A stretch of DNA of 64,000 nt from an uncultured Oribacterium sp. (GTDB taxonomy: Bacteria > Bacillota > Clostridia > Lachnospirales > Lachnospiraceae). The notes below the pieces were generated by a model, which was given only the letters and a program-made list of their open reading frames with translations, was not told the DNA's origin and did not search any database. Made by a program: the position numbers and the translations under genes. Below, piece after piece: positions 9,729-62,396 of this stretch. Location: NCBI GenBank assembly GCA_946413525.1, contig CAMKKZ010000014.1, forward strand, positions 1 to 64,000. Reading direction: 5' to 3'. Position 1 is the stretch's first letter, and every line of letters starts with the position of its first letter.

Positions 9729-9911
9729 CAGGCAATTGAAGAGGTCAAAAAAACCACTTTGATAGAGGAGCCATGTAGTTTGCGATACCTCAGCCGTTTG
9801 TCAGGAATTAAAATGGCCCAAAAACCACTTTAATAGAGGAGCTGTGTGGCTTGCGATACCGTAGCTGTATGTCGGCAATTAAAATGGCCAAAAACCACTT
9901 TAATAAAGGAG
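9729..9911 (+). repeat. Family A repeat, 2-3 tandem copies, ending as flgC ribosome site
   Basis: Two full units of about 70 bp (from 9771 and 9842) follow a partial one at 9729. Each contains ATTAAAATGG..CCACTTTAAT, an imperfect inverted repeat around CCAAAAA, then an AGAGGAG end. The last copy ends TAATAAAGGAG (9901-9911), nine bases before the flgC ATG at 9921, and so supplies its Shine-Dalgarno sequence. Confidence 0.85.
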
Positions 9912-9920
9912 TCAGGCAAT

Positions 9921-10370
9921 ATGTCATTTCTTACTTCATTTGATATCAGCGCGTCAGGCATGAGCGCGCAGAGGCTGCGTCTTGACGTGGCCGCGGAAAA
10001 TATCGCGAATGTGGATACAACCAGGACGGAGGCGGGGGGCGCGTATCGGCGGAAAGACATTGTTTTTGAAAGCTTTGGCTCAAATACTTTCCGCGCAGCC
10101 CTGAGGAACGCGGCCAGAGGCAAAGGGTTTCGCGGGCAGAAGGCAGGTGTAAGGGTTGCTGACATTATCACGGACGACCGCGAGATGAAGAGGGTTTACA
10201 ATCCGAACCATCCGGATGCGGATGAAATGGGTTATGTGGATTATCCCAATGTGGATATGCTGAAGGAGACAGTGGACAGCATGGCGGCTACCCGTTCCTA
10301 TGAGGCCAATGTCACTGCTTTGAATGCGATGAAGACAATGGCGCAAAAAGCGTTGGAAATAGGCAAGTGA
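9921..10370 (+). CDS. flgC: Flagellar basal-body rod protein FlgC
   Basis: The protein is 149 residues, the usual FlgC length. It has the N-terminal rod motif ..FDISASGMSAQRLRLDVAAE.. and ..NIANVDTTRT.., and the C-terminal ..VDMLKETVDSMAATRSYEAN... FlgC is a proximal rod subunit. The frame is open upstream through the family A repeat to 9846, but ATG 9921 follows AAAGGAG and fits the family. flgC normally sits in flgB-flgC-fliE at the head of the operon. Here it is between cheY and fliY, so it has either moved or is a second copy; the upstream genes are outside the window. Confidence 0.93.
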   Translation: MSFLTSFDISASGMSAQRLRLDVAAENIANVDTTRTEAGGAYRRKDIVFESFGSNTFRAALRNAARGKGFRGQKAGVRVADIITDDREMKRVYNPNHPDADEMGYVDYPNVDMLKETVDSMAATRSYEANVTALNAMKTMAQKALEIGK

Positions 10371-10404
10371 TTATGTAATGTCCCGCGGCGGGCAGTGTTT
10401 TTCA

Positions 10405-10577
10405 TAATCGTACGGATACCACTTTATTTAATAGAGGAGCCATTTGGATTGCGATACATCTGTATGTCGGCAATTAAAATGGCCAAAAAAACACTTTTAT
10501 AGAGGGGCCATTTGGATTGCGATACTGCAGCCGTTTGTCAGGAATTAAAATGGCCAAAAACCACTTTGATAGAGGAG
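10405..10577 (+). repeat. Family A repeat, three tandem copies, ending as fliY ribosome site
   Basis: A partial copy (ends AATAGAGGAG at 10430-10439) and two further copies of roughly 70 bp follow one another. The middle copy has ACACTTTTATAGAGGGG, the last CCACTTTGATAGAGGAG. The final AGAGGAG (10571-10577) stands directly before the fliY start. Confidence 0.85.
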
Positions 10578-10584
10578 TATGGAG

Positions 10585-15030: not shown

Positions 15031-15049
15031 ATAAAAGGAGGCACAATCA

Positions 15050-21065: not shown

Positions 21066-21123
21066 AACTGACTGTCAGGAGTGTGGCATGCCTGATAGAG
21101 GCACAGTATAGTCTGTGAGAACA

Positions 21124-21317
21124 CAGTCGTTTTGTCGGCAATTAGAATGGCCAAAAAACCACTTTAATAGAGGAGCCATATAGCCTGCGATACCGCAGCT
21201 GTTAGTCGGCAATTAAAATGGCCAAAAAACTACTTTAATAGGGGAGCCATATAGCCTGCGATAACGAGGCTGTTTGTCAGGAATTAAAATGGCTCAAAAA
21301 CCACTTTAATAGAGGAG
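21124..21317 (+). repeat. Family A repeat, three tandem copies, ending as cheC ribosome site
   Basis: The best-conserved array of the family: cores at 21135, 21207 and 21280. Each has TGTCGGCAATTAAAATGG or TGTCAGGAATTAAAATGG, CCAAAAAACC, ACTTTAATAGAGGAG, followed by CCATATAGCCTGCGATA. The last AGAGGAG (21311-21317) is six bases from the cheC ATG. Confidence 0.88.
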
Positions 21318-21323
21318 TACTGG

Positions 21324-21941
21324 ATGAAGATCAACAGTTATGAAGAAATGAACCTTCAGGAACTGGATGTGATGAGGGAAATCGGCAGTATTGGGACAAG
21401 CCATGCAGCCACGGCTCTTTCCCAGCTTGTTCAGAAAGAGATTCGGATCACAATTCCTATGGTGCATATTCTGGGCTATAATGAGGCTGTCAGACGGATC
21501 GGCAACGAGGAAGAGATTGTTGGTGCCACACTGGTCAAGATGAGCGGCGACCTGAATGGTCTTATGCTATTCCTGTATAATATCCAGTTCGCGAACAAGC
21601 TCCTTGAAAAGCTCCTTTCTGAGGAATTCAAAGCTTTTGAGGAAATGGACGATCTCGCCAGGTCGGCCCTGGTGGAGGTGGGCAATATTATCATCTGTTC
21701 TTATATCAATGCCTTCACCCAGTTTGTAAACATGGATGTCTCCCTTTCTGTCCCCAGTTCCACTGTCAATATGCTGGGAAGCATACTGACGGTGCCAATG
21801 GCGGAATTCGGGTATGAAACGGATAAGCTGATGTACTGCAACGCGGATTTCCTGATGGAAGGCAGCGTGCTTCCATCGTGGCTTTTGATGCTTCCGGACA
21901 TGAAGTCGCTGAATGAGATTCTAGAAAGATTAGGGGTTTAA
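21324..21941 (+). CDS. cheC: CheY-P phosphatase CheC
   Basis: A 205-residue CheC protein (FliY/CheC/CheX family). The first active-site helix reads ..MREIGSIGTSHAATALSQL.. and keeps Glu19, but Ser22 stands where Asn is normal. The second, ..SALVEVGNIIICSYINAF.. , keeps Glu118 and Asn121. CheC removes phosphate from CheY-P and is stimulated by CheD, which is encoded nine bases downstream. The start is ATG 21324 after the repeat-borne AGAGGAG. Loss of Asn in site 1 suggests only the second site is active. Confidence 0.93.
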   Translation: MKINSYEEMNLQELDVMREIGSIGTSHAATALSQLVQKEIRITIPMVHILGYNEAVRRIGNEEEIVGATLVKMSGDLNGLMLFLYNIQFANKLLEKLLSEEFKAFEEMDDLARSALVEVGNIIICSYINAFTQFVNMDVSLSVPSSTVNMLGSILTVPMAEFGYETDKLMYCNADFLMEGSVLPSWLLMLPDMKSLNEILERLGV

Positions 21942-22459: not shown

Positions 22460-22665
22460 CCGTCCGCGTGACGAAGTATGAAAAGCAAGCTTTTCATACT
22501 TCATTTGTGCCGCTGGCGTGACACAAATGGGACTCAATGCCTGCGGCATCAAGTCAAAGTATGAATGGATCTTTCATGATTTTTTTGTGAGGCGGGATTT
22601 CATGACCGGAAGTATGAAAAAGCAAGCCTTTCGTACGTGCCTTGCGCAATGTGCGAGGTGGAAAC
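22460..22665. repeat. Family C composite palindromic element (cheD-cheV gap)
   Basis: Contains AAGTATGAAAAGCAAGCTTT/TCATACTT, GTGCCGCTGGCGTGACAC, ATGCCTGCGGCAT and GGATCTTTCATGATTTTTT followed by GGATTTCATGACC. The same modules occur at 30250-30480 and 61512-61657, where the central module is in the other orientation. The rest of the gap up to 22846 shows degenerate pieces only and no gene or clear terminator. Confidence 0.75.
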
Positions 22666-23817: not shown

Positions 23818-23879
23818 TGTAACTGTTCAGTCAGGCTGAACAGTTACGTATCGGGTGTAATGCTTATTGAATAGTTACT
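23818..23879. repeat. Family D minimal hairpin plus half element
   Basis: GTAACTGTTCAG-tcagg-CTGAACAGTTAC (23820-23848) is the bare core of family D. It is followed by TATTGAATAGTTAC at 23866-23879. The second half abuts the next open frame. The hairpin lies just after cheV but has no following T run. Confidence 0.75.
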
Positions 23880-30249: not shown

Positions 30250-30480
30250 GTTTTCGCATACTTTAACTTGATGCCGGAGGCATTGAGTCCAGTTTGTGGC
30301 GTGCCGGCGGCACAAATGAAGTATGAAGGGATCTTTCATGATTTTTGTGGGGCGTGGTGCCATGACCACAAGTAAGAAAGGCAAGCCTTTCATAATCCAT
30401 ATGTGCCGCTGTTGTCTCATGTATGGGGCAGCGATGCTTGTGGCATTAAGTCATAGCATGAACGGGGTAAGAAGACGGGA
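30250..30480. repeat. Family C composite palindromic element (fliD-fliS gap)
   Basis: Modules in order: TTGATGCCGGAGGCATTGAG, GTGCCGGCGGCAC, AAGTATGAAGGGATCTTTCA, TGATTTTTGTGGGG followed by CATGACCACAAGTA, AGAAAGGCAAGCCTTTC, and a degenerate GTGCCGC end. The central module matches the reverse complement of the one at 61512-61657. The open frame crossing it (30323-30520) is not a gene. Confidence 0.75.
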
Positions 30481-31424: not shown

Positions 31425-31545
31425 GTGGTATTGCGTAGCTTATGATATCGCCGCTGTTTGTCAGGAATTAAAGCGGCCAAAAACCACTTTAATAGACGAG
31501 ATATATTTAATTCCGTAACTGTTCAGTCCTGCTGAACAGTTACCA
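31425..31545. repeat. Family A copy followed by minimal family D hairpin
   Basis: A family A unit (GATATCGCCGCTGTTTGTCA, GGAATTAAAGCGGCCAAAAA, CCACTTTAATAGACGAG, ending 31501) is followed by GTAACTGTTCAG-tcctg-CTGAACAGTTAC (31517-31545). Here the AGAGGAG end is altered to AGACGAG, and it lies 60 bases before the next start, so it gives no ribosome site. Confidence 0.8.
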
Positions 31546-31562
31546 TTTTTTATGGTATTATC

Positions 31563-44223: not shown

Positions 44224-44265
44224 GGCGCGTGCTTCGCACAGTCGCGGGCTTTGGGGACAGGGTTG

Positions 44266-44470
44266 CTCTGTCCCACGGGCGGCTCGCCATGTCAGAGCCG
44301 AGATGGCTGAGCCCGCTCTGGTAAGATGAGTTGATTTACCCCACGGGCGGCTCGCCATGTCGGAGCCCGAATTGCTTAAAAGCCTTTCTGATAATAGATG
44401 ATTTGATTTACCCCGCAGGTGGTTCGCCTGTTGATTTTAGAGCGGCCAAAACCCGATCTGACAGGGGAGG
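44266..44470 (+). repeat. Family A variant, three tandem copies, ending as ribosome site
   Basis: Units starting near 44270, 44337 and 44405 share CCCCACGGGCGGCTCGCCAT, GTCGGAGCC and TGATTTA. The last unit has TTTTAGAGCGGCCAAAACCC and ends GACAGGGGAGG, seven bases before the next ATG. This CGCCATGTCAGA-type 5' half links the intergenic family A with the copies inside the genes at 49769 and 58488. Confidence 0.78.
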
Positions 44471-49768: not shown

Positions 49769-51382
49769 ATGAATGATATTATTAGGACATATGAGAGGCT
49801 TCTCAGTGAAATCGCCCTTAGCTCGGATAATGGGAAATTATCCGCCCTTGATGAAGAATTATGTCGTTTGGAAAATGAGCATGCCAATTTATTGCTTCAA
49901 TGGAAAGAATACGTTTGCCTTTTGTCGGGTGTGGCAAAAGATGCCTCGATATGCATTGGCATTCTGGGTCCTTCCGGTCATTCTCTTTGTCATCTTATTG
50001 AGCTTCTTTATCCTATGTCGAGGGTTTATTGGCTGATGAGCGCCGGGGATGCGGAGGAATTGCCGGAAAAACTTGATTTCCTGATCATTATGGAGGACTT
50101 CCTTTCCCCTGAAAATGTTTCTTTACCAGGGCTGGGCGAGCCGACTTGCCCCTCAGACGGTTCGCCATGTCAGAACTCAGAGCGGCCAAAAACTATTCTG
50201 ATAGAAGAGAATGGGCTTGATAACTGCCTTTCCATAAAAGGAAAGGCTGCTTTTTTATTAAAAAAAGAAGACAAAAAAGAGAGTCTGGCCTGGGATTTCG
50301 CCGTAAGGACCGGCTGGATTACGGACAGTCAGGACGTAATTTCCCTGGGGAATACCGGGCAATACAGGAGGCTTTATTTCAGGAGGAGGGAAAGGGAGCG
50401 GGTTCTCGAGACAGCATCGGCTCCCAAATATAAAACAATATACGCGCTTTGTCCTGCCTATCTGAAAACCGGGGGTACTGAGCTTGTCCATCAGCTTGTT
50501 TATTGGTTGAACAGGCTCTGGGAGGGATGCGCGTACATCGTCTATATTGAAAAAGATGGAAGTTCAAGGCCTTGCTGTCCCCCGGAATTCATGGATTATG
50601 TCAGCGGGCATGTCGCTTTGGAAGAGGAGATCAAGGAGGAACCGGAAAACGCGCTTGTGATCCCGGAGGGCTATGCAAAATACATCCTCCGTCGAAAAAA
50701 TCTGTGCCGTATTTTATGGTGGCTCAGCGTTGACAATTTTGTTGAGTCAACGGAGGGAAGAGAGACAGAAATACTCGCGCTTATTCGGCCGCGGATCGAT
50801 GTCAATCTGTATCAGTCTCATTATGCCTTTGCTTACCTTTTGGAAAAGGGATTTGATCCCTCGAAAATGAAATATTTGTCTGATTACCTTAACCACCAGT
50901 ATCTTGATCATCAGGCGGAAGCCCTGTCCAGCCCGAAAGAGGACATCGTCCTGTACAACCCCAGCAAGGGGTATGAATTTGTCAAGAAGCTCGTGAAAAG
51001 CTCTGAGGACATCCAATATTGCGCAATCAATAATCTGACGACAAAGGAGGTATACGATCTGCTTTGCCGGGCAAAAATATACATAGACTTTGGAAATCAT
51101 CCCGGCAAGGACAGGATCCCCAGGGAGGCGGCCAGTTGCGGTTGTCTGGTCATTACCGGAAGGTATGGAAGCGCGCAGTATTATGAGGATGTTCCTATTC
51201 CGGAGGGGTACAAATTTGACCAGGATAGGGCAGGATTTGACACGATTAGCGCATTTATTCGTTTGTGCCTTAAGGAATATGCTGAGAGGAGAGGGGATTT
51301 TGACTTTTACCGGCAGTGGATCAATGAAGAAAAGGGCAGATTTATTAAGGATGTGGAGGCTGTCTTTGGTATTGTTTCGTGA
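49769..51382 (+). CDS. Glycosyltransferase (GT-B fold) containing an in-frame family A repeat
   Basis: A 537-residue protein. The N-terminus (1-45) is helical. A divergent first domain (about 50-120) is followed by the repeat-derived insert (about 126-148) and then a GT-B type domain from about 215 (..IYALCPAYLKTGGTELVHQL.. , ..KIYIDFGNHPGKDRIPREAA.. and SCGC, the C-terminal donor-binding end). It probably adds a sugar to flagellin or a surface glycan. The start is ATG 49769. It is the last gene before the converging flagellin gene. The repeat insert does not interrupt the frame. Confidence 0.78.
   Translation: MNDIIRTYERLLSEIALSSDNGKLSALDEELCRLENEHANLLLQWKEYVCLLSGVAKDASICIGILGPSGHSLCHLIELLYPMSRVYWLMSAGDAEELPEKLDFLIIMEDFLSPENVSLPGLGEPTCPSDGSPCQNSERPKTILIEENGLDNCLSIKGKAAFLLKKEDKKESLAWDFAVRTGWITDSQDVISLGNTGQYRRLYFRRRERERVLETASAPKYKTIYALCPAYLKTGGTELVHQLVYWLNRLWEGCAYIVYIEKDGSSRPCCPPEFMDYVSGHVALEEEIKEEPENALVIPEGYAKYILRRKNLCRILWWLSVDNFVESTEGRETEILALIRPRIDVNLYQSHYAFAYLLEKGFDPSKMKYLSDYLNHQYLDHQAEALSSPKEDIVLYNPSKGYEFVKKLVKSSEDIQYCAINNLTTKEVYDLLCRAKIYIDFGNHPGKDRIPREAASCGCLVITGRYGSAQYYEDVPIPEGYKFDQDRAGFDTISAFIRLCLKEYAERRGDFDFYRQWINEEKGRFIKDVEAVFGIVS
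50145..50212 (+). repeat. Family A copy inside a coding sequence
   Basis: CCCCTCAGACGGTTCGCCAT, GTCAGAACTCAGAGCGGCCA, AAAACTATTCTGATAGAAGA, G. It reads in frame as CPSDGSPCQNSERPKTILIE. The same peptide (SPCQN / CQNSERP) and frame occur at 59478-59614. The TCAGA/TCTGA stem is kept. Confidence 0.82.
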
Positions 51383-51529
51383 CTGAAAGGCAGGAACCTT
51401 GGAGTTGTCTGCTTCGCAGCCTGTATTGTTTGAGAGACGAAAAAGAAGATAAAAGGCTGCGGCATAGAGCGCTACCGTAAAGCGTTGCCGCATAGACGAA
51501 AAAGAAGATAAAATGTTTTCGCAAAGCAA

Positions 51530-51561
51530 AAGCCGGGACTTCAATAATGAAATCCCGGCTT
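51530..51561 (-). terminator. Intrinsic terminator of the flagellin gene
   Basis: On the minus strand AAGCCGGGATTTC, loop ATTATTG, then AAGTCCCGGCTT, followed by TTTGCTTTGCG. It lies about 65 bases after the flagellin stop. The rest of the 245-base gap holds two imperfect copies of GACGAAAAAGAAGATAAAA (51437 and 51496) and no gene. Confidence 0.75.
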
Positions 51562-51627
51562 CCGTTAGGTCATACAACATGTATAAGCTTGCTGCACGAC
51601 TGGAATAATACCATAGAAATTCAACAA

Positions 51628-52407
51628 TTACTGGAGCAGAGAAAGGACATTCTGAGGCTGTGAATTCGCCTGTGCCAGCATGGACTGAGCAGCCTGGTTC
51701 AGGATGTTGTTCTTTGTGAATGCCGAAATCTCTTTTGCCATATCCGTATCACGAATACGAGACTCTGCAGCTGTCAGGTTCTCAGAAGCGGCCTCAAGGT
51801 TGCTGATGGTATGCTCAAGCCTGTTCTGCTTTGCACCAAGGTCGGCACGGCTGACGGAAAGGCTGTTAATCATACTCTTCAGAGAGTCAAGCTTGCTGGC
51901 TCCGAGCTTGCTGACACCGGCTGCGATGGTCGTCAAACTCACCTTGCTAAGCTGGATTGTCTCGGTGCTGGTTGGCCCAACCTGGAATGTGGCATCAGAG
52001 AATACATTAACATCATTGAACGTAGAGCTGGTAGCAATCCTGGAAATCTCGGACTTCAACTGCTGAAGCTCTTTCTCGATAGCTTCCTTAGATGTCTTGT
52101 TCTGGATGCCGTTCTGACCTTCTTCTACCAGTGTGGTCATACGCTGCAACATGCTGTGTACTTCGGTCAGAGCACCTTCTGCGGTCTGAATGAAACCAAC
52201 AGCGTCCTTCGCGTTCACAATAGCCTGGTCAGTCGCATTAATCTGGTGACGCATCTGCTCGGAAATGGCAAGACCTGCGGCATCATCACCGGCCCTGTTG
52301 ATCCTGTAGCCGGAAGAAAGCTTCTCAAGGTTCTTGTTCAGGTTGGTGACATTGGAGCTCTGATTCCTGTACGAGTTGATTGAAGCGATATTGTGCTGAA
52401 TAACCAT
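51628..52407 (-). CDS. fliC: Flagellin
   Basis: A 259-residue flagellin, short because the variable D2/D3 region is nearly absent. The conserved N-terminus is MVIQHNIASINSYRNQS with ..LEKLSSGYRINRAGDDAAGL... The D1 helix ..EVHSMLQRMTTLVEEGQNG.. follows. The C-terminal ..SRIRDTDMAKEISAFTKNNI.. ends QPQNVLSLLQ. It is the filament subunit, exported through FlhAB with FliS. It lies on the minus strand inside the glycosylation island. AGGAGG stands before the ATG. The leader has CsrA-type sites and a sigma-28 promoter. No second flagellin gene is in the window. Confidence 0.97.
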   Translation of the reverse strand: MVIQHNIASINSYRNQSSNVTNLNKNLEKLSSGYRINRAGDDAAGLAISEQMRHQINATDQAIVNAKDAVGFIQTAEGALTEVHSMLQRMTTLVEEGQNGIQNKTSKEAIEKELQQLKSEISRIATSSTFNDVNVFSDATFQVGPTSTETIQLSKVSLTTIAAGVSKLGASKLDSLKSMINSLSVSRADLGAKQNRLEHTISNLEAASENLTAAESRIRDTDMAKEISAFTKNNILNQAAQSMLAQANSQPQNVLSLLQ

Positions 52408-52412
52408 ATTAT

Positions 52413-52452
52413 CCTCCTGTTTTCAACTTCGCTGTGACTTCCCTGTCCCAGC
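52413..52452 (-). promoter_or_regulatory. Candidate CsrA sites in the flagellin leader
   Basis: On the minus strand, GCTGGGAC-AGGGAA-GTCACAGC (52431-52452) is a hairpin with one mismatch. Its six-base loop contains GGA, inside ACAGGGAAGT (52437-52446), close to the CsrA consensus ACARGGAWGT. A second AACAGGAGGAT overlaps the Shine-Dalgarno (52413-52418). This two-site layout matches the B. subtilis hag leader. Confidence 0.65.
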
Positions 52453-52536
52453 TATGTCCTGTTTCATGTGCACCTGATTGCAGGACAAGGTAATTTGTTA
52501 ACTGAATGTACATAAAGATCCGTCTTTACATTTATT

Positions 52537-52563
52537 ATATCGGCTCTTGAAAACAGAATATAA
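52537..52563 (-). promoter_or_regulatory. Sigma-28 promoter of flagellin
   Basis: On the minus strand TTAT (52560-52563), 15 bases, GCCGATAT (52537-52544). The -10 is a perfect sigma-28/SigD match and the -35 is weak. The leader to the flagellin start is about 125 bases. The fliD promoter at 27423 has the same elements. Confidence 0.72.
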
Positions 52564-52593
52564 GACATATAAACTTCTTTTTTTGAAAATTCA

Positions 52594-52622
52594 TTGAAAA
52601 ATTTACCTTGTTACGGTACATT
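52594..52622 (+). promoter_or_regulatory. Weak candidate promoter for the second glycosylation block
   Basis: TTGAAA (52594-52599), 17 bases, TACATT (52617-52622) on the plus strand, divergent from flagellin. The first gene starts 225 bases downstream. The -10 is poor. The remaining gap to 52846 has only a duplicated TTCGTCAAACC (52680, 52746). Confidence 0.3.
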
Positions 52623-52846
52623 ATGTATGGCATTTTTCAAACTCATGATTAAGATAGTCATAGAAGTGGGCAAACAAATTCGTCAAACCTGTATCAAACC
52701 TGACGCCGGATGGGTAGCGGAACAAAAAGACTTATGTAAATAGAAGTTCGTCAAACCCGCATAGAACTTTGCTTTAGGGCTTGACGGGATGGGAAGGAAG
52801 CGGCAAAGGACCGTTCTGATCGGGAAGAAGCGGAGGGGATGGCTTC

Positions 52847-54019
52847 ATGCGGATAGTCGCGCATCGTTATGGCAGCATTTGTGAACCGGATTATATTGAA
52901 GCTTTTCGGCGCTTCGGCCTGGAAGTGGAAGAGGACTGCGATGAAATCAGGAGGAAGAATATTCCTCCCGGGGAGAGAGTGGAAAGGCTGGGCAGGTTGA
53001 TCCTGGAACATAAACCCATTTTCGTTTTTTCCATAAATTTTTTTCCTTACATTTCCGCAATCTGCCAGCGCCTCTCAGTAATCTACGTTGCCTTGACGGT
53101 GGACTGCCCTGTTCCCGAAATCTATGATGTGCAGATCAGAAATCCCTGCAACCGGGTTTTTCTGTTTGATTACGCCCAATATCTTTCAGTTAAAGATGAA
53201 AATCCCGGAAATATTTTTCATCTCCCTCTGGGCTCGGCTGTCGACCGTTTTGACAAAGTGTTGGGGAATTTGACCGGATATCTTTATGATGTTTCCTTCG
53301 TAGGATCATTATATAATGAAAAGGATCCTTTCTTGAAGCTCTCCTTCCCGGATTATGAGAGGGGTTATTATGACGCGTTGATCCAAATGCAGGAAATGCT
53401 GCCCCCGGGCCAGACATTGGAGGAGCTTGTTTCATCAAGAGACGCGGATAATTTCAAAAAAGCGGATGATTCTTTTTATTCCAGCGCTGACAACGTGGAG
53501 AGTGTTCGGCAGATTGATGCCTTTATTGTCTGGGATTATTATATATGCCCGCATCTTACCTACAGGGAACGTGTTCGGCTTCTCAATACGGCTGCCGCGA
53601 GGCTTGCGCCCCGGGAGCTCCATTTTTTCACCAGAAGCGATGTATCGGAGCTTCGGGGGGTCTTGTGCCATACGGAAGGCGCCGAGACCATGTATGAAAT
53701 GCCCCGGATATTCCGTCAAAGCAAAGTCAATATACATCACACGGCCAGGGCAATCCGAAGCGGCCTTTCGCAAAGGATATGGGACGTATTGGGCTGCGGA
53801 GGTTTCCTGCTGACAAACCGGCAGCCGGAGCTGGACATGGAACTTGATGGAAAATGTTTTTCGGTTTATGATGACCCGGAGGATTTGTCAGACAAGGCAT
53901 GTTATTACCTTTTGCATGAAGCGGAAAGGGAGACTATTGCCCGAAATGGTTATGAATATGTTAAAGACAGGCACTCTGTCCTTATGCGCGCTGCTGAAAT
54001 AATCAAAAGGCTGCTCTGA
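52847..54019 (+). CDS. CgeB-like glycosyltransferase 1 (DUF3880 type)
   Basis: A 390-residue GT-B protein. The N-terminal DUF3880-like half has ..FVFSINFFPYISAICQRLSV.. and ..YDVSFVGSLYNEKDPF... The C-terminal Glyco_trans_1_2 half has ..RQSKVNIHHTARAIRSGLSQ.. and RIWDVLGCGGFLLTN. The same pattern is in the paralogue at 62399. CgeB-like proteins occur in spore-coat and flagellar glycosylation loci. The start is ATG 52847 after GGAGGGG, with slightly long spacing. The next LicD-type gene follows at once. Confidence 0.85.
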   Translation: MRIVAHRYGSICEPDYIEAFRRFGLEVEEDCDEIRRKNIPPGERVERLGRLILEHKPIFVFSINFFPYISAICQRLSVIYVALTVDCPVPEIYDVQIRNPCNRVFLFDYAQYLSVKDENPGNIFHLPLGSAVDRFDKVLGNLTGYLYDVSFVGSLYNEKDPFLKLSFPDYERGYYDALIQMQEMLPPGQTLEELVSSRDADNFKKADDSFYSSADNVESVRQIDAFIVWDYYICPHLTYRERVRLLNTAAARLAPRELHFFTRSDVSELRGVLCHTEGAETMYEMPRIFRQSKVNIHHTARAIRSGLSQRIWDVLGCGGFLLTNRQPELDMELDGKCFSVYDDPEDLSDKACYYLLHEAERETIARNGYEYVKDRHSVLMRAAEIIKRLL

Positions 54020-54045
54020 TGGATACAGCCGCGGGGAGGGCGGGA

Positions 54046-56040
54046 ATGTTTGCGGATGATTATTTTGAGGATGAAGTGAGGGATGGCTTTTATGTACCTG
54101 CCATCATGAAAAGAAGCTGGGCCGCCATGCTGGAGCTCCTGTCCATGATTGCCGAGCTTTGCGATAAGCATTCCATAAAGTGGTATGCGGCTTACGGGAC
54201 GTTGCTTGGGGCGGCGCGTCATGGGGGCTTCATTCCCTGGGATGATGACCTGGATATCTGCATGCTGAGAGAGGATTTTGAGCTTTTTTTGAATTATGCA
54301 AGGGAAGAACTGTCCGGATGTTACATTGCCAATAGTTTTTCTGATGAAAAAGGGACTTTCCTCGCCCCGTGCGTTACGGTGAGAAATAGCCTCACCCCTC
54401 TCTTCAGGGAGCCGAATACTCTTTCCCGATATCATGGCTTCCCTTACCCGGTCTTTGTGGATGTATTCCCCTATGACAATCTGTCCAGGAATCCGGAGCG
54501 GGAGCGTCTCCGGGATCATATCTGGCTTGACTTGAATGACATAGCGTCCTTTTTGGCAAAAGGGGAATTTTCCGAACGGGATATTGAGTCGGCCTTGAGC
54601 CGGTCGGAATCTGTTTTGGGGATTCATAACATGAACCGGGGATTGCCCATCCGGGAGCGGATTGTCAGGCTGGACAGGGAAGCGTCAGCACTGTTTCGGG
54701 GGGAGGCGGCAGATTATGTGGGAAACGTGGGCTTATATGCCATCCTGGGGGCAAAGTACCCGAAATCGGCCTTTTCAGAAACGATAATGCTGCCTTTTGA
54801 GGGTATGAGCATGAGGGTGCCCGCGGCCTATGAGGAGGTACTCAGGGCGTGTTACGGCAATTGGAGGAAGAAGGTCCGCGGGGGGACGGCCCACGGCTAC
54901 CCTTTTTTCAAGGACATGGCCAGCTCGATTGAAGCTATTTCTAGTCCATCGCATCTTTTCCCGATGAAGATTAACGAAGATATGCTGCGAAATAAAGGGC
55001 AGACGGACTGCCTGCCTGCCCAATTCCGGGCGGGACGGCATCTTGGAGAGTGGCAGGAAATTCTGTCCCGCATCCCTGCCCTTATTTCCTATATGGGCGC
55101 GGAGGAAATCCTGGGACTGCTGAAAAAGCTGCAGGATGACGTTGTCCATACAGGGACCCTTCTGGAAAAGTCTGGGGCGGAACAGATGGGGACTGCCGTT
55201 TCCATGCTGGAATCATTTTGCGAATCTGTTTACAGGGCTTACCTTTTCTTCTCATCCGGGAGCCGCGGGGATGGAAGGGATATTGTTTCGCAGGATGAGT
55301 TTTCCAATGCGTCCGCCACGATCTCTTCATTAAAAGATGAATTGAAAAAGATTGTCGATTTCATTTTGTCAAGTAATGGCACGCGCCGGGAAGTGGCGTT
55401 CTTTCCACGAAGGGCTCGTGATTGGAAAGCCATGGAAAGCATCTGGAAAGCTGCAAAGGAGGATCCGGAATGGAATGTTTCCGTAGTCCCTGTTCCCTGG
55501 CGGTACCGGGACGGGAACGGGGAGACAGCGGGAGAGACATACTATGAGGGAGGGGAGTTCCCGGACTACGTGCCCATTGTCCCTTTTCAGGATTATGATG
55601 TCGCGGCACGCTGCCCGGACATTGTGATTATCCAGATTCCTTATGATGAATATAATAACGCCATGAGCATTCATCCCGATTTTTATGCCAGGGAGCTGAG
55701 AAAGCATACGCGGCGCCTCGTCTATATCCCCTGGTTTGTGACGGATGAATTTGACGCTGGAAAGAAGATGGACCCGGCGGACTATACAATGCTTTATTAT
55801 GCCTTGACGCCGGGGGTGGTCTTTTCCGATTTAATTATTGTCCAGTCTGAAAAGATGAAGGAAACGTATGTCCGGAAGCTTACGGAGATGGCGGGGGAAG
55901 GGACGGAGGGCGTTTGGAAGGAAAAAATCCAGGGCCTTGGTTCTCCGGTCATGGAGGCTCCTCCGGGAGAAGGCTATGGCTATGGGGAGATTCGGAAGTC
56001 CGCGTTATGGGAGACGATTTCAAAGTATTCAGGTTTATAG
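54046..56040 (+). CDS. LicD-family fusion protein 1
   Basis: A 664-residue protein. Residues about 20-250 are a LicD domain (..WYAAYGTLLGAARHGGFIPW.. then DDDLDICM), the phosphocholine/phosphosugar transferase family with its Asp cluster. A helical middle (about 330-440) follows. The C-terminal part (about 445-660; ..PEWNVSVVPVPWRYRDGNG.. , ..VYIPWFVTDEFD..) resembles part of CDP-glycerol phosphotransferase-type GT-B proteins; that is inference. The frame is open from ATG 54019, which overlaps the previous stop. I prefer ATG 54046 after GGGGAGGG, because the paralogue at 56422 starts at the matching residue. Confidence 0.85.
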   Translation: MFADDYFEDEVRDGFYVPAIMKRSWAAMLELLSMIAELCDKHSIKWYAAYGTLLGAARHGGFIPWDDDLDICMLREDFELFLNYAREELSGCYIANSFSDEKGTFLAPCVTVRNSLTPLFREPNTLSRYHGFPYPVFVDVFPYDNLSRNPERERLRDHIWLDLNDIASFLAKGEFSERDIESALSRSESVLGIHNMNRGLPIRERIVRLDREASALFRGEAADYVGNVGLYAILGAKYPKSAFSETIMLPFEGMSMRVPAAYEEVLRACYGNWRKKVRGGTAHGYPFFKDMASSIEAISSPSHLFPMKINEDMLRNKGQTDCLPAQFRAGRHLGEWQEILSRIPALISYMGAEEILGLLKKLQDDVVHTGTLLEKSGAEQMGTAVSMLESFCESVYRAYLFFSSGSRGDGRDIVSQDEFSNASATISSLKDELKKIVDFILSSNGTRREVAFFPRRARDWKAMESIWKAAKEDPEWNVSVVPVPWRYRDGNGETAGETYYEGGEFPDYVPIVPFQDYDVAARCPDIVIIQIPYDEYNNAMSIHPDFYARELRKHTRRLVYIPWFVTDEFDAGKKMDPADYTMLYYALTPGVVFSDLIIVQSEKMKETYVRKLTEMAGEGTEGVWKEKIQGLGSPVMEAPPGEGYGYGEIRKSALWETISKYSGL

Positions 56041-56125
56041 TTAGGGAAATGCTGATTTAAGCGTTTCCGGCGCCGAAAACGCACCGCCCAGCGGCAAATT
56101 TCCTTTGCGTTTTCGTGTGCATCAT

Positions 56126-56156
56126 AGGGAAATGCTGATTCAATCAGCATTTCCCT
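56126..56156 (+). terminator. Possible terminator stem after LicD 1
   Basis: AGGGAAATGCTGAT (56126-56139) and ATCAGCATTTCCCT (56143-56156) form a perfect 14-bp stem with a 3-base loop, followed by GGCTTTTCG. AGGGAAATGCTGATT also occurs alone at 56043, suggesting a duplicated arm. The T run is short, so termination is uncertain. Confidence 0.5.
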
Positions 56157-56199
56157 GGCTTTTCGCATGCATGGCTGACTGAATAACTGTGGTAATTTT

Positions 56200-56400
56200 C
56201 CAGATCAAAGTGGTTTTTCCCGCTCTGATTATGTGAGAAGCCGATGCGGCACTACAGCAGCAAGGCTTTGGAATCAAAGTGGTTTTTGCCGCTCTGATTA
56301 TATGATAAACCGATGTGGCACTGCAGCAGCAAGGCTTTCGGATCAGAGTGGTTTTTTGCCGCTCTGATTATGTGAGAAGCTGATGCGCTGTCGCGTTGGC
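56200..56400 (-). repeat. Family A repeat in reverse orientation, three copies
   Basis: Three units of about 69 bp beginning near 56203, 56271 and 56340: ATCAAAGTGGTTTTTCCCGC, TCTGATTATGTGAGAAGCCG, ATGCGGCACTACAGCAGCAA, GGCTTTGG. The reverse complement gives ATCAGAGCGG..CCACTTTGAT, the family core. Read on the plus strand it does not give a ribosome site; the next gene has AAGGGGG outside the repeat. Confidence 0.8.
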
Positions 56401-56421
56401 AAGGCTTCGCAAGGGGGAAAA

Positions 56422-58464
56422 ATGCGTTTTTCTGAAGACTGGTTTGAGGATGAGGTGAGAGAGGGCTTTTATGTTCCTGGCATAATCAAGCGGTACTGGG
56501 CCGCTGCCCTGGAAATTCTGGAAATCATCGATGGAATCTGTCGGAAGCATAACATCCGTTGGTTTGCCATGTATGGGACGCTTCTGGGCGCGGCGCGCCA
56601 TCAGGGCTTTGTTCCATGGGACGACGATGTGGACGTTTGCATGCTGCGAGAGGATTTTGACAGCTTTCTCGCGGCGGCAAAGGATGAACTGCCGGAAGGC
56701 TTTTCCATAGAGAGCTTTGCCACGGACAGGGACGAAACGGTCAATGGCTTTTCGCCGGGGGTTTCCATAAGGAATTATCCGAGATTATATCATAGCGAGC
56801 CGGAGGTTCTCAGGCAGTTTCATGGCTTCCCTTATCAGGCTTTGATCGACGTGTTCCCTTTGGACAATATCAGCCCTGATACTAAGCGGGAAAACTACAG
56901 GGACATCATCTGGATTGAGATTAATGAAATCGCCCGCATGTATACAGGCCATGAATTTTCCGAGGATATGGAGGACGCGATCAGCCGGGTGGAAGGGATT
57001 CTGAATGTTTCGGAGGATGGGGCAGAACAGGGGCTTTCTTTCCGGGAAAGGCTGCAGAGGCTCCAAATGAAGGCCTGCACTCTTTTTCAAAATGAGAAAA
57101 CCGGGATTGTGGGAAATGTGCCGAACTTCATCTCCTACAACGCCTCTTTCCCCATTGAGTTTTTCAGTCAGACGGATCGCCTTCCTTTCGAACAGTTCAG
57201 TATTCCGGTCCCGTGGAAATACAGGGGGGTATTGCGTAGGATTTATGGCAACTGGGAATTAAAGACAAGGGGCGGGACGATACATTCCTATCCTTATTTT
57301 TCCATCGCTTCCGAGAGGCTGGGCAAACATATGAGGCCTTCCCATTTATTTCCTTATGAGATTAAAGGGGAAGATATAAAAAAGAGCCTGGAAGCCCAAA
57401 AGCTTCTTTCACCGGCAGAATGGGCCAGGTCATCCCTTTCCGCGCTGAAGTCCGCCGTCCTGTCCCTTTCCGCAGCTTTTTCATCTCTTGAAAAGGCTGC
57501 GGCCGCGGAGATGCTGGCTGATTTTCAGCAGGTGGCGGTTGGCATTGGCACGGGCCTGGAACAGTCCGGTCTGGAAGAGGCTCCGGGCCTGGTTTCCATG
57601 CTGGAAACGTTTGCCGATCATCTCTATCAGCTTTATGAATACATAGCGGCTGACAATTCCGCCGCGGAGAAGGAAACCGTCCGGGCCCATGGAGCTGATG
57701 ATGGCGGGCCGACCATGCTTGCCGTCCTGCGGGAAGACCTGGATTCGATGCTGGAATTTGCCGGGACTAGGCTTTGGAAGAAAAAGGAAGTAGTGTTCCT
57801 GCCTCGCAGGGCTTCTGACTGGGCGGCCATGGAAAGCGTCTTCAGCGCGGCCATGGAGGATGAGGAATGGAAGGTTTCGGTCATCCCCGTCCCATGGTAT
57901 TACCGGGATGTGGATGGAACAATGCTGCAGGAACAATGGTACGATGGGGGGCTTTTTCCGGATTATGTCCCCATTACCGGATACAGGGATTATGCCTTTT
58001 CTCTGAGGCATCCGGATGTGATTATTACTCAAAACCCCTATGATGAATATAATAATTCCATGAGCGTCCATCCGGCCTTTTACATAAGGGAGCTACGGAA
58101 GCATACGGAATGCCTTGTATATATCCCGTGGTTTGTGACGGAGGAATTAGACGGGAGGCAGAAGAATGACCCGGCTGCGCGCAATGCGGTTTATTACGTG
58201 ACGACGCCGGGAGTCGTATTCTCCGATCTGGTTATTGTACAGTCTGATAATATGAAAAAATTTTATGTAGATGTGCTGTCGGAAGCAGCCGGGGAGGAAA
58301 GCCGGAGCTTATGGGAGGAAAAGGTTCAGGGGCTGGGCTCTCCCCTTTCTGACAAGGAGGGGGGAGGGCGCGCTTATGGAAACGCTGTCGCATCATCTCT
58401 GTGGGAGGCGATTCGAAAGAAGGCAGAGGACGGGAAGAGCAGGGAGGGGAAGGCTGATATATAG
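56422..58464 (+). CDS. LicD-family fusion protein 2
   Basis: A 680-residue paralogue of the protein at 54046, similar along its whole length. The LicD domain spans about 20-250 (..WFAMYGTLLGAARHQGFVPW.. then DDDVDVCM). A helical middle (about 340-450) and the same C-terminal part (about 455-670; ..EEWKVSVIPVPWYYRDVDG.. , ..VYIPWFVTEELDG..) follow. The two probably add similar phospho-substituents, each with its own specificity. The start is ATG 56422 after AAGGGGG. The repeat block 56200-56400 separates the two genes, suggesting duplication with repeat spread. Confidence 0.85.
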   Translation: MRFSEDWFEDEVREGFYVPGIIKRYWAAALEILEIIDGICRKHNIRWFAMYGTLLGAARHQGFVPWDDDVDVCMLREDFDSFLAAAKDELPEGFSIESFATDRDETVNGFSPGVSIRNYPRLYHSEPEVLRQFHGFPYQALIDVFPLDNISPDTKRENYRDIIWIEINEIARMYTGHEFSEDMEDAISRVEGILNVSEDGAEQGLSFRERLQRLQMKACTLFQNEKTGIVGNVPNFISYNASFPIEFFSQTDRLPFEQFSIPVPWKYRGVLRRIYGNWELKTRGGTIHSYPYFSIASERLGKHMRPSHLFPYEIKGEDIKKSLEAQKLLSPAEWARSSLSALKSAVLSLSAAFSSLEKAAAAEMLADFQQVAVGIGTGLEQSGLEEAPGLVSMLETFADHLYQLYEYIAADNSAAEKETVRAHGADDGGPTMLAVLREDLDSMLEFAGTRLWKKKEVVFLPRRASDWAAMESVFSAAMEDEEWKVSVIPVPWYYRDVDGTMLQEQWYDGGLFPDYVPITGYRDYAFSLRHPDVIITQNPYDEYNNSMSVHPAFYIRELRKHTECLVYIPWFVTEELDGRQKNDPAARNAVYYVTTPGVVFSDLVIVQSDNMKKFYVDVLSEAAGEESRSLWEEKVQGLGSPLSDKEGGGRAYGNAVASSLWEAIRKKAEDGKSREGKADI

Positions 58465-58487
58465 AGAGAAGGATGGCATAGAAAAGG

Positions 58488-60872
58488 ATGGAATTAAAGA
58501 AAAAACTTGCGGCGAGGGAATATGACACGCTGGTCGTAACCACGGCGGAGGATTTCCGGCGCCTTGCCATGCACCACCACAGGCTTTGGGAACACCTTGA
58601 GAGCAGGAAGCTGATCTTTGTCGGAAATAAGGATGTGGGAAGCCTGCTGGAGAAGGCGGGATATCCGGAAAACGTGCTATTCCTCGATGAAAATGACATT
58701 ATCCCTTTTTCCGATGTGGCGGCCGTGATGACGGAATGCCTGAGGGAAAGAGGGGAACTGGCGGGCCGTGAGGCACCCAGGGGCGTCGTGGGCTGGTATT
58801 ACCAGCAGTTTCTGAAGATGCAGTATTCAAGGATCTGTCAGGATGATTATTATATGAGCTGGGACGGGGATACGGTTCCCTGCGTGGATATTTCCATGTT
58901 TGACCCGAAAAGCGACCGTCCTTTTATGGACTTAAAGAATGAATATGATGAGAATTTTTTCATTACGATGAAAAGGCTGCTGCCGGACCTTAAAAAGATC
59001 ATCAGGAAAAGCTGCATTTCCGAGCATATGCTTTTTCATTGCGGCATTATGAGAAGCATGCTGGCAGACATTGAAAAAAACGGGAATTTCAAGGGTGATG
59101 TTTTCTGGGAAAAGATACTTCGTTCTATTCCAAAGCTCAGGGACGCCTGCTTCAGTGAATTTGAGACCTATGGGTCTTACGCGGCGCTGCATTATCCTTC
59201 GCAATATCTATTCAGGAACTGGCATTCCTTCCGGAGATGCGGCATTTTTTTCGACCCGTCGGATACAGGGGACGGAGATTTCATCTGGTTTGGGAAGGAT
59301 TTCGAGGCGGTTTCTTTTGAAAAGATTGACAAGCCGGACTGGATGACAGAGAACATTTTCAGGAATCCTAAATTCCGAAGCCGTTTGTCCGCAAGGAAAA
59401 TGGTGGAGATCGTGCAGAAGGATTTTGGATTTTATCACCAGGAGGAATGGGAGGACGGGCCGGATCAGGATCCGATTTCCCTTTCAGGCGCTTCGCCATG
59501 TCAGAACGCAGAGCAGTTAAACCCTGCTCTGATAGATGAGCTGATTTCCCCTTCAGGCGCTTCGTTGTGTCAGAATTCAGAGCGGCCAAACCCCACTGTG
59601 ATAGATGAGTGGAGGGAATATGAGCTTCTGGGGGATGCCCGCGCCCCGGAAAACCCGGATCACGCGTTTCTATGCTATGAAAACGCGGAATTCCTCTGTA
59701 CGGATTCGGCTGAAAAAGAAAGGCTCCGGGCGAGAAAAGCCGCGCTGCTACAGTCCGGCCTCGCGCATGTACGGCATGTCACCATCGTTATCGTAACACG
59801 CAATGAACATTATATGACGGAGAAGTGCGTCGAGAGCATCCGTGCCTACTGCAGCCCGGACGCGTATGGCATCCTGGTACTGGACAATGCCTCGGATGAT
59901 GGCACGGCGGAATGGCTGAAAGCGCAGGGGGACATAGGGCTTTTGCTGAGTGATGAGAACATGGGTTATGTCCGGGGCTTAAACGAGGCATTATCCTATG
60001 TGCCGGAGGGGGATGATGTCCTGCTTCTTCATCAGGACGCGCGGATGGCTCCAAACGCCCTTTTCTGGCTCCGCATGGGGCTGTATGAAGATTCCGGCGT
60101 AGGCGCGGCGGGCTGCGTTTCCAATTACGCGCCGATAGACCAGCTCGCGGGGCCGTTTTTCCCGTTGCCGGCAGAGTACCTTGCGTATGGAAGGGAGAGA
60201 AATGTGCCGATGGAGGGGGCACATGAAGAAAAGGCAAAGCTTTCCGGCTTCGCGCTGCTGCTTCGAAGGGACGCGCTCGACCGGGTGGGCGGCCGGCTGG
60301 ATGAGGCCTTTTCCCCGGCCTATCTTGAGGACGACGACCTTTGCATGCGCCTCCGGAAAGCCGGGTTCCGCCTGCTCTGCTGTCATAACAGTTTTGTTTA
60401 TCATGCGGGGCTGGGAGGCTACCTTTCTTCGAATGACGCATCGGGGCTTGAAAAAAAGAACTCGGAAACATTTCTTCGTAAGTGGGGAGGCTTCATATAC
60501 GCCATGACAGAGGAGGAAGCCCGCTTTCTCCCGAGGATCGAGAGGGGAAGGCATGAGTCCTTCCGCTTTCTATACCTGGGAGCCGGGAGCGGCGCCATGC
60601 TGGACAGGGTGAAACGGCTGTTTCCCCATGCCATCCTTTTCGGCACGGAAGAGGACAAGGGGGCTGCTTCCCAGTCCGCGTCCGTACCGCTGACCTGTCT
60701 GAACTGGAAAAGCGAAGCGCTTCCTTTTCCTGAGCGCTATTTTGATTATATTATCGTTAATGAGAAGCGAAGCGGTGGCACTCTCTCCCTTGCTTCTCTT
60801 CGGAATTTACTGGATCATTACCTTCGCGAAGATGGGGTTTTGTTGAAGCTTGCGGCTGTCAGGGGAGGATGA
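58488..60872 (+). CDS. DUF6492-GT2-methyltransferase fusion with in-frame family A repeats
   Basis: A 794-residue protein. Residues 1-320 resemble DUF6492 glycosyltransferases (..GWYYQQFLKMQYSRICQDDY.. then YMSWDGDTVP). Residues about 330-376 come from two tandem family A repeats in frame. A GT2 domain spans about 425-670 (..VTIVIVTRNEHYMTEKCVES.. , ..VLDNASDDGTAEWL.. , ..FSPAYLEDDDLCMRLRKAGF..). A class I methyltransferase-like end follows at about 688-794 (..FRFLYLGAGSGAMLDRV..). Such a protein could add two sugars and methylate the glycan. The repeat makes the linker between the first two domains. The start is ATG 58488. Confidence 0.82.
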   Translation: MELKKKLAAREYDTLVVTTAEDFRRLAMHHHRLWEHLESRKLIFVGNKDVGSLLEKAGYPENVLFLDENDIIPFSDVAAVMTECLRERGELAGREAPRGVVGWYYQQFLKMQYSRICQDDYYMSWDGDTVPCVDISMFDPKSDRPFMDLKNEYDENFFITMKRLLPDLKKIIRKSCISEHMLFHCGIMRSMLADIEKNGNFKGDVFWEKILRSIPKLRDACFSEFETYGSYAALHYPSQYLFRNWHSFRRCGIFFDPSDTGDGDFIWFGKDFEAVSFEKIDKPDWMTENIFRNPKFRSRLSARKMVEIVQKDFGFYHQEEWEDGPDQDPISLSGASPCQNAEQLNPALIDELISPSGASLCQNSERPNPTVIDEWREYELLGDARAPENPDHAFLCYENAEFLCTDSAEKERLRARKAALLQSGLAHVRHVTIVIVTRNEHYMTEKCVESIRAYCSPDAYGILVLDNASDDGTAEWLKAQGDIGLLLSDENMGYVRGLNEALSYVPEGDDVLLLHQDARMAPNALFWLRMGLYEDSGVGAAGCVSNYAPIDQLAGPFFPLPAEYLAYGRERNVPMEGAHEEKAKLSGFALLLRRDALDRVGGRLDEAFSPAYLEDDDLCMRLRKAGFRLLCCHNSFVYHAGLGGYLSSNDASGLEKKNSETFLRKWGGFIYAMTEEEARFLPRIERGRHESFRFLYLGAGSGAMLDRVKRLFPHAILFGTEEDKGAASQSASVPLTCLNWKSEALPFPERYFDYIIVNEKRSGGTLSLASLRNLLDHYLREDGVLLKLAAVRGG
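59478..59614 (+). repeat. Two tandem 69-bp family A copies inside a coding sequence
   Basis: Units with TTCAGGCGCTTCG at 59483 and 59552, exactly 69 bases (23 codons) apart. They read ISLSGASPCQNAEQLNPALI and ISPSGASLCQNSERPNPTVI, each followed by DE. Stem CAGAGCAG/CTGCTCTG in copy 1 is perfect although its sequence differs from CAGAGCGG/CCACTGTG in copy 2. Confidence 0.85.
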
Positions 60873-60881
60873 TTTGAAAAA

Positions 60882-62190
60882 ATGAGAGAAAATAAGTACC
60901 ATTTTATTTTCAGCAAAGGGGTTCTCCCTGTCCTTGATGAACTGACGGAAGAATTATGCGGGGCTGTTGCCGCCCTGGGCATGGACTATTACATTATAAA
61001 TCCATCTGTCCCGGAAAGCTTCACGTCGGACGCCTTTTTTTCCTATCTGTCACAGGGCGGCTGCATTGGGCTTTTTTTCAATCAAATAGGAACACTGCTT
61101 TCGCTAAAGGATGGCAGGAATCTTTGGGAAGCATTCTCTGTCCCTGTTTATACATGGGTTGTCGATCATCCGAGGAACTTTCCTTCCGCGTTTCTGAACC
61201 CTGTTCCCAATCTGCATGTTATCTGTACGGATCGGGACCATGCGGCATTTGTGAAAGCGTATTATCCCAAGGTGGAGAAGCTGTATTTTTTGCCCTGCGG
61301 AGGCAGCAGGGCGGAAACGGAAACGCCATACGGGGAACGGGATATAGAGCTCCTTTATATCGGAAATTGCGAGAATGAGGTCGGATAGCTTCCTTAAAAG
61401 AGATGAAAGACGGAGAGTGGGAATTCTGGCAGCATGTCGTTTCGTCTATGATTGGGAATCCTGCCCTTACCACGGAGGAGACTGTCCATCGTTACCTTGC
61501 CGGGAATGGAATGGAGTATGAAAGGCAAGACATTCATACTTGTGGTCATGGGGCCCCGCCCCACAAAAATTCATGAAAGTATCCTTTCATACTTCATTTA
61601 TGCCGCTGACGCGTCAAAAATGGGACGTCAATGCCTGCGGTATCAGGTCAAAGGATGAGGATGTCTTTTTTGACATTATTACAAAACATGCCCTGACGAT
61701 TGAGAAGTATGTGCGGAGGTATTTTAAAATAAATATTATCCGCGCGCTGGACAGAGCGGGCGTGCATGTGGAGATAATTGGGAAAAACTGGAATCCGGAC
61801 CTGCCGTTTAGCGGCAATGTGACTGTTCACGAGGACTTTGTCAGCCGGGAGGAATGCCTCAAAAGAATCCAGCGCGCGAAGCTTGCCCTGAACCTGACGC
61901 CATGGAGCAAAAACGGTTGCAGTGAAAGAGTGTTTGACATCATGTTGAATGGGGCGGTCTGTCTTTCTGAATCGAATCATTATCTTCATGAACGCTTTCA
62001 GGATGGAAAGGAGCTTGTTTTCTTCGATCTGCTTAATCTGCCGCAGATGGCTGAGGATGCCAGATGGCTTTTGGAACACCCGCAAGCCGCCGCGAAAATT
62101 GCCGGGGAGGGGCAGCTCGCGGCTTCCATGAAGGATACCTGGAAGGAAAGGGTGCAATGCCTCGTTTCGCTTTTCGATGATGAGGCGTAA
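60882..62190 (+). pseudogene. Broken GT-B (CgeB-like) glycosyltransferase gene
   Basis: Three pieces in different frames make one GT-B protein. Piece 1 (60882-61388; MRENKYHFIFSKGVLPVLDE..) runs to ..LLYIGNCENEV then stops. Piece 2 (about 61385-61515; ..SLKEMKDGEWEFWQHVVSS..) is in another frame, so a frameshift lies near 61378-61391. Piece 3 (about 61658-62190; ..DEDVFFDIITKHALTIEKYV.. and ..CSERVFDIMLNGAVCLSESN..) is in the third frame after a family C element. Piece 3 has the C-terminal donor-binding half. The two independent lesions make a full-length product unlikely. A truncated C-terminal protein from 61540 would begin inside the repeat. Confidence 0.85.
61512..61657. repeat. Family C element inserted in a glycosyltransferase gene
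   Basis: AGTATGAAAGGCAAGACATT, CATACTTGTGGTCATGGGG, CCCCGCCCCACAAAAATTCA, TGAAAGTATCCTTTCATACT, then GCCGCTGACGCGTC and CAATGCCTGCGGTATCAGG. It matches the intergenic copies at 22460 and 30250, with the central module inverted relative to 30250. Its length shifts the reading frame of the host gene. Confidence 0.82.
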
Positions 62191-62238
62191 TTATTCCTGG
62201 GATTCAGCCGGATTGAACAGTCCCCTTTTGTGATTTTT

Positions 62239-62396
62239 CTGAGTCAGGAAACTTTTTTGAGTCAGCAGTCTGTTTTTCTGAGTCAGGAAACTTTTTTGAG
62301 TCAGCAGTCTATTTTTCTGAGTCAGGAAACTTTTTTTGAGTCAGCAGTCTATATATATGAGTCAGGAGCTCGTTTTTATATGAGTCAGGAGCCCAT
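62239..62396 (+). repeat. 39-bp tandem repeat carrying the downstream ribosome site
   Basis: CTGAGTCAGGAAACTTTTTT then GAGTCAGCAGTCTGTTTTT repeats at 62239, 62278 and 62317, followed by two degenerate GAGTCAGGAG units. The last CAGGAG (62386-62391) is the Shine-Dalgarno of the gene at 62399. One frame reads FLSQETFLSQQSV per unit, but copy 3 has an extra T that breaks it, so translation is doubtful. Confidence 0.85.

Follow-up and report, generated by a model that had tools for sequence, protein, structure and literature searches.

A palindromic repeat family lying in frame within many genes of an uncultured Oribacterium

The window analysed here, a stretch of 64,000 nucleotides at the start of contig CAMKKZ010000014.1 from an uncultured Oribacterium sp., carries units of a short palindromic repeat, which we call family A, inside two of its coding sequences. 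The same genome holds dozens of such in-frame insertions in conserved proteins, all read in a single codon phase and all absent from congeners where these were compared. We consider it most probable (about 0.78) that family A is a mobile element resembling the repetitive extragenic palindromes (REPs) of other bacteria, amplified in one species and tolerated within proteins as an in-frame passenger.

Family A in the window and across the genome

The family A unit is 69 bp long, or 72 nucleotides when the GAG common to neighbouring units is counted. Its majority consensus is GAGCCGATTTGCCCCGCAGGCGGTTCGCTATGTCAGAATTCAGAGCGGCAAAAACCCACTCTGATAGATGAG, which translates as EPICPAGGSLCQNSERQKPTLID per 23 codons. 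The units within window genes, and the proteins that carry them, are as follows:

49769..51382, plus strand: host protein 1, 537 residues, with no Pfam match; distant homologues of its C-terminal part in two congeners
50138..50209, plus strand: family A unit (72 nucleotides including the shared GAG; 69-nucleotide step), in frame in the open reading frame 49769-51382, peptide EPTCPSDGSPCQNSERPKTILIEE
58488..60872, plus strand: host protein 2, 794 residues, with DUF6492 at residues 20-278 and GT2 at about 431-640
59469..59540, plus strand: family A tandem pair, unit 1, in frame
59538..59609, plus strand: family A tandem pair, unit 2, in frame

A preliminary description of this DNA had placed repeat units inside these two coding sequences, read in a common frame as the related peptides SPCQNSERP, SPCQNAEQL and SLCQNSERP, with a tandem unit of exactly 69 bases (23 codons). 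The placement is confirmed with coordinates shifted by a few bases, all three units begin at codon phase 0, each of the peptides was recovered, and the measured tandem step is 69 bases. The positions of the Pfam matches also bear out that the insert of host protein 2 is an inter-domain linker, lying between DUF6492 (20-278) and GT2 (from 431). Both genes had been called glycosyltransferases, a name that stands for host protein 2 through its GT2 match and lacks family support for host protein 1, because the latter has no Pfam match. The insert site of host protein 1 is not comparable with that of its relatives, because the alignments to its two congener homologues are confined to residues 222-533 and leave the site outside. 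Host protein 2 has a paralogue in its own genome (locus L146) in which the flanks are conserved and the linker is longer, of low complexity and unrelated; a search for named relatives of this protein found none. The test for an empty site is weaker for both window proteins than for the enzymes IspH, HisD and MnmG, described below.

The genome is a 4.02-Mb draft in 70 contigs. A 24-base core of family A, allowing at most 3 mismatches, matched it 198 times (87 forward, 111 reverse) and its reversed control 0 times, so the repeats are not a product of chance. A DNA search detected family A in 0 of 115 relatives, 16 of them congeners, and a 20-mer of the core had 0 exact matches across the contigs of 84,980 species, a collection from which the organism's own or very near records are possibly absent. 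On these comparisons the family is apparently restricted to the species.

We fetched 105 stretches around copies, totalling 622,895 bases and including the window; a further stretch, L095, was left out because it is contained in L146. The total of 205 family A copies includes one weak copy twice, from an overlap on contig C38; the 191 copies that score above 38 contain no such duplicate. Genes were called with a dicodon score made for this analysis, and gene-based counts are approximate. Within the set of 191, 70 copies lie in genes in the sense orientation, 3 lie antisense in 2 genes (for GDSL lipase-like and acyltransferase-like proteins), 109 are intergenic and 9 run across a gene edge. The sense copies occupy 44 genes, 34 of them with an internal copy (20 or more residues from the start and 45 or more from the end); a few of the 44 are short predictions without a family match. 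The coding share of these stretches is inflated, because 20 of the 105 were picked mostly through protein searches showing the peptide. Sampling by pattern only (100 of the 198 core matches listed) gave 30 copies in genes, 63 between genes and 7 at edges. All 30 in-gene copies of this sample are sense and 0 antisense; 23 are internal (in 19 genes) and 7 lie near an end. The observation of the preliminary description is real and larger than first reported. High copy number, dispersal and a mostly intergenic position are traits of REPs, and in-frame insertion into many unrelated conserved genes, here 44, is a trait of the Rickettsia palindromic elements (RPEs).

The sense hosts include matches to MnmG, IspH, RimM, PrmC, NagA, an RsmF-like methyltransferase, HisD and type III pantothenate kinase, as well as LysR- and sigma-type regulators, an FAD oxidoreductase, an ABC ATPase, a DnaB_2 protein, a flavodoxin-fold protein and others. 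Two units each occur in a UvrD-type helicase and in the PD-(D/E)XK nuclease protein next to it, probably an AddA/AddB-like pair. A protein of 1746 residues encoded at L147 3257-8494 (minus strand), with a match to Pfam RdRP (PF05183, E 3.2e-12), also contains two in-frame family A units.

The preliminary description had allowed that homologues might show the same residues at the insert, but the congeners lack the repeat. IspH is exactly 46 residues shorter at the insert in 16/16 congeners, which equals two units (2x69 nucleotides). Of 13 congeners with a HisD match, 11 aligned across the site and 11/11 are shorter by 65 residues, the extra stretch consisting of one A unit and one unit of a sister family, B. 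All 14/14 matching congeners aligned over the MnmG site and the repeat is missing from every one; 13 of them are shorter by 22-32 residues, while the homologue L111 (congener G002) is merely 3 residues shorter because an unrelated loop occupies the insert position. PrmC aligned in 11/16 congeners, with the repeat in none and a different loop extension in L214. Residues 131-165 (35 in all) of the genome's own MnmG stand opposite a single residue, 153, of the solved MnmG structure 3cp2, which we take to be that of E. coli. IspH and HisD each have a single own-genome match at E <= 1e-20, and MnmG has a single full-length one. The alignments suggest that the inserts sit on protein surfaces or in tolerant linkers and turns.

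Reading frame, orientation and selection

All 70/70 in-gene sense copies are in phase 0 and none in phase 1 or 2. The consensus holds 0, 2 and 1 stops in its forward frames and 2, 1 and 0 in its reverse frames. Tandem steps are divisible by three in 31/31 cases in genes and in 37/51 outside them. Profile alignment finds a frameshifting indel in 1 of the 70 in-gene copies, and 0 of them have an in-frame stop; intergenic copies (n = 109) show a frameshifting indel in 27, an in-frame stop in 26 and either one in 48. When the observed substitutions are placed at random, stops are expected in 21/70 in-gene and about 30/109 intergenic copies. Selection for an open frame in the intergenic copies was considered and rejected, as their in-frame stops (26/109) compare with 30.3 expected at random.

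Treating the consensus as the ancestor, which is a simplification, we found in-gene substitution rates of.147,.139 and.153 at codon positions 1, 2 and 3. The synonymous share is 216/697 (0.31) in genes and 271/855 (0.32) between genes, with a random expectation of 0.275. Neither codon position nor synonymous share revealed purifying selection on the peptide. In the in-gene repeats the frame is conserved and the residues are not, and because the frame is kept without codon-position bias the inserted peptide looks like a neutral passenger, tolerated rather than useful, which is the best-supported reading of these data.

Orientation was scored over 121 clusters of copies. In genes, 44 clusters are sense and 2 antisense; between genes, 37 are sense to both codirectional neighbours and 12 opposed to both, 10 and 8 lie between convergent and divergent genes, respectively, and the remainder are at edges or contig ends. 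The sense bias is stronger in genes than between codirectional genes (Fisher p 0.008). Stops alone do not explain it, because the consensus is open in one reverse frame as well as in forward frame 0. Because intergenic clusters show the bias as well, the way units insert with respect to replication or transcription may account for some of it.

A candidate transposase and rival explanations

A search of the genome for transposases, which covered the Y1_Tnp family, returned a single intact protein matching that family. Encoded at L019 2097-2834 (minus strand), it matches NCBIfam NF047646, 'REP-associated tyrosine transposase' (RAYT), at 82.2 bits, just over the cut-off of 80. Three strong family A units lie upstream of its gene, the nearest ending 97 nucleotides before the predicted ATG, and no strong copy lies within the gene itself. 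A second RAYT copy (contig C56; L239 4186-4603) is truncated and frameshifted. This neighbourhood is a circumstantial link between the RAYT and family A, and weak by itself. Relatives of the RAYT at E <= 1e-25 occur in 36/200 genomes of the bacterial family, its own included; among the others, the best full-length match shares 49% identity. In 6 of 7 related loci that we viewed, the RAYT is surrounded by recurring short or inverted repeats, which are not seen at the seventh, L243; a convincing score for the A or B sequence was obtained at none of the 7. Nor did family A match any of five congener RAYT loci (29-39% identical), among which L174 alone has the gene flanked on each side by clear palindromes. 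At this locus (L174 3013-4797, congener G004) the RAYT lies between near-perfect palindromes of 44-47 nucleotides at 3784 and 4735, with a third at 3013, in a TIRtron-like arrangement. Congener G004 has thirty Y1_Tnp matches, many of them partial, which suggests an active IS200-like element there.

We propose that family A was probably copied by the genome's single intact RAYT, in what appears to be a recent amplification, with insertion not targeted to any reading frame. The insertions that survive would be in the stop-free phase and at sites that tolerate them, linkers and turns for instance; a single insertion phase would survive because one sense frame is free of stops and the unit's length is divisible by three. 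The insert would be translated as a mildly hydrophilic spacer containing Pro, Gly and Ser, 23 residues per unit, whose tandem growth preserves the frame and which the host tolerates rather than benefits from.

Several observations weigh against this proposal. According to PMC2817692, two inverted REPs always flank a RAYT gene, and we found no family A copy in the 2.1 kb examined downstream of the RAYT, nor a strong one beside its truncated second copy. A family A copy also stands within 150 nucleotides upstream of 39/466 genes (at least 100 residues, sampled stretches), a background that is probably overestimated because the stretches were chosen for copies. The absence of stops from in-gene copies is partly true by construction, because genes were called from open frames, and these copies are slightly more diverged than intergenic ones (9.7 versus 7.6 substitutions per copy). 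Hairpin covariation in family A alone, with standard pairs in 82.8% of the cells of a 9-pair stem, is not above all shuffles. The classical GTAG tag of REPs is missing from the consensus, and GTAG occurs in 12/218 A copies.

The peptide might instead have a selected function, as a common tag, linker or regulatory module recruited into many proteins. An identical peptide frame across all sense hosts, the strong sense bias by gene (44 versus 2) and the position of the insert at a domain linker in host protein 2 speak for this, but we regard it as unlikely, given that codon positions are equally variable, that the synonymous share matches that of intergenic copies, that the hosts belong to unrelated families and that congeners do without the insert in IspH, HisD and MnmG. 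Translation is not needed for part of the sense bias either, because intergenic codirectional clusters (37 versus 12) show it too, though less strongly. Post-transcriptional removal of the insert, or its skipping in translation, in the manner of an intron or of mitochondrial bypassing, would leave normal proteins and would suit the presence of housekeeping enzymes with a single genome match among the hosts. Such a process would require neither phase 0 without stops (70/70) nor steps divisible by three (31/31) and, to our knowledge, a unit of just 69 nucleotides is far below the size of self-splicing introns; we hold this to be very improbable.

Spread without the genome's RAYT, through recombination, slippage or gene conversion among copies or through another transposase, has somewhat more to recommend it, as 62 neighbouring pairs stand in tandem at the 69-nucleotide step and the RAYT is tied to family A by neighbourhood alone. 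Nonetheless, a RAYT equivalog is present next to a unit array, and tandem slippage alone is insufficient because unrelated host genes have empty sites in congeners, so that we grant this alternative a small chance. An artefact of assembly or binning, an error which the preliminary description had also allowed for, might be suspected in a draft of 70 contigs, but it is scarcely credible for copies found in the interior of many different contigs, flanked by host sequence and with frames open throughout, and most tandem neighbours differ in sequence. Overall, a mobile REP-like family carried as a tolerated in-frame passenger explains the data best.

Sister family B and relation to known systems

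Family B, with 118 copies in the stretches fetched for family A, has a hairpin related to that of family A. A search with family B gave matches in its own genome and in none of the 16 congeners. The 9-pair stem shows standard pairs in 86.0% of cells for B and 84.0% for A and B together, both exceeding every one of 300 shuffles, and its pairs include T-A/C-G and A-T/G-C swaps. Single-sequence folds of units are weak (best z -2.2 of 5), and RNAalifold on 55 family A copies gave no supported stem. The tetranucleotide before the first hairpin of family B is mixed (ATAG 25, GCTG 22, GTAG 10, others), and the GTAG/GTGG (or CGTC) foot of REPs is absent from the family A consensus.

The step of family B is uneven, being 71 nucleotides in 8/29 pairs and 69 in 7/29, with 18/29 steps not divisible by three. 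Only 6/118 B copies lie in genes (1 internal, in HisD), compared with 74/205 A copies (59 internal; Fisher p about 2e-12), in samples where B was collected alongside A and A is enriched for coding copies. Because a single B consensus also holds open forward frames, uneven unit length is the more likely cause of the near-absence of family B from gene interiors. We tentatively raise the possibility, which we do not favour, that family A arose from a family-B-like ancestor and that a unit settled at 69 bp, with a single sense frame free of stops, opened coding regions to it as a habitat; the uneven B step and the open frames of the B consensus weigh against this reading. If it were true, it would describe a REP lineage living both in and between genes.

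Further units of these and related repeats lie elsewhere in the window:

9748..10578, plus strand: family B units at 9748-9912 and 10414-10578, step 71 nucleotides
21082..21370, plus strand: family B tandem array, step 71 nucleotides
44262..44469, plus strand: diverged units of the family A superfamily (about 44265-44330, 44328-44398 and 44404-44469)
56204..56411, minus strand: three tandem units with steps of 69 and 70 nucleotides, weak matches to the family A profile

The window also holds other repeats. One dispersed repeat with a CATTTGTGCCGCTG-like core (22474-22531, 30370-30461 and 61567-61680) is by eye unrelated to A and B. An inverted-repeat-like sequence, GTAACTGTTCAG...CTGAACAGTTAC, has three copies (14993-15032, 23818-23857 and 31514-31553). 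Three tandem units of 39-40 nucleotides with GAGTCAG motifs lie at 62234-62351, and hairpin-like 72-nucleotide repeats, 99% identical and 135 nucleotides apart, at 1-72 and 136-207.

With family B, which avoids gene interiors, the genome supplies its own internal comparison. The system permits direct tests of three questions: how peptides inserted at random get through the filter that protein function imposes, whether REPs of one family can become adapted to coding DNA, and which structural sites tolerate additions of 23 residues. It also adds a further lineage to those with protein-embedded palindromic repeats.

The preliminary description had likened the inserts to the protein-embedded palindromic elements of Rickettsia. 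The analogy holds and extends to 44 genes, but the element itself looks to be of REP/RAYT type rather than an RPE, because a RAYT gene is present. As presented in passages of PMC10969869 and PMC3767692, RPEs resemble family A in being palindromic repeats in frame in many unrelated conserved genes, and their inserts are described as solvent-exposed. RPEs differ in their length of about 100-150 bp and their origin in Rickettsia, the likeness drawn here being one of description; the CGTC class is not associated with a transposase gene in the account given in PMC3733652.

The REP/RAYT systems treated in that paper (GTAG REPs and REPtrons) share with family A, as far as its relevant sections go, short palindromes in high copy that are mostly intergenic and sometimes in frame, RAYT genes adjoining the repeats, and families that are in some cases species-specific. 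Family A differs from the REPs described there in its 69-bp unit, its head-to-tail tandems at a 69-nucleotide step, the lack of a GTAG or CGTC tag in its consensus and the 30/100 pattern-sampled copies within genes. By eye, the NHVH (HuH) and YILNNP (Y) motifs of the genome's own RAYT fit subclasses 2.4 and 2.7 as given in passages of PMC6006769. In subclass 2.4, by the same passages, in-frame REPs lie inside the RAYT (tnpAREP) genes themselves, whereas family A lies in dozens of host genes. Our searches of open-licence papers showed no account of REPs lying in frame in genes of Lachnospiraceae or other Clostridia, and the main text of PMC3733652 has 0 occurrences of 'clostridi'. The sections of that paper that bear on the point record in-frame REPs within genes of several bacteria, most numerous in Opitutus terrae and Rickettsia conorii. 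Because in-frame REPs and the Rickettsia elements are already known, we regard family A as a variant rather than a new phenomenon, namely a coding-compatible and apparently species-restricted form of REP.

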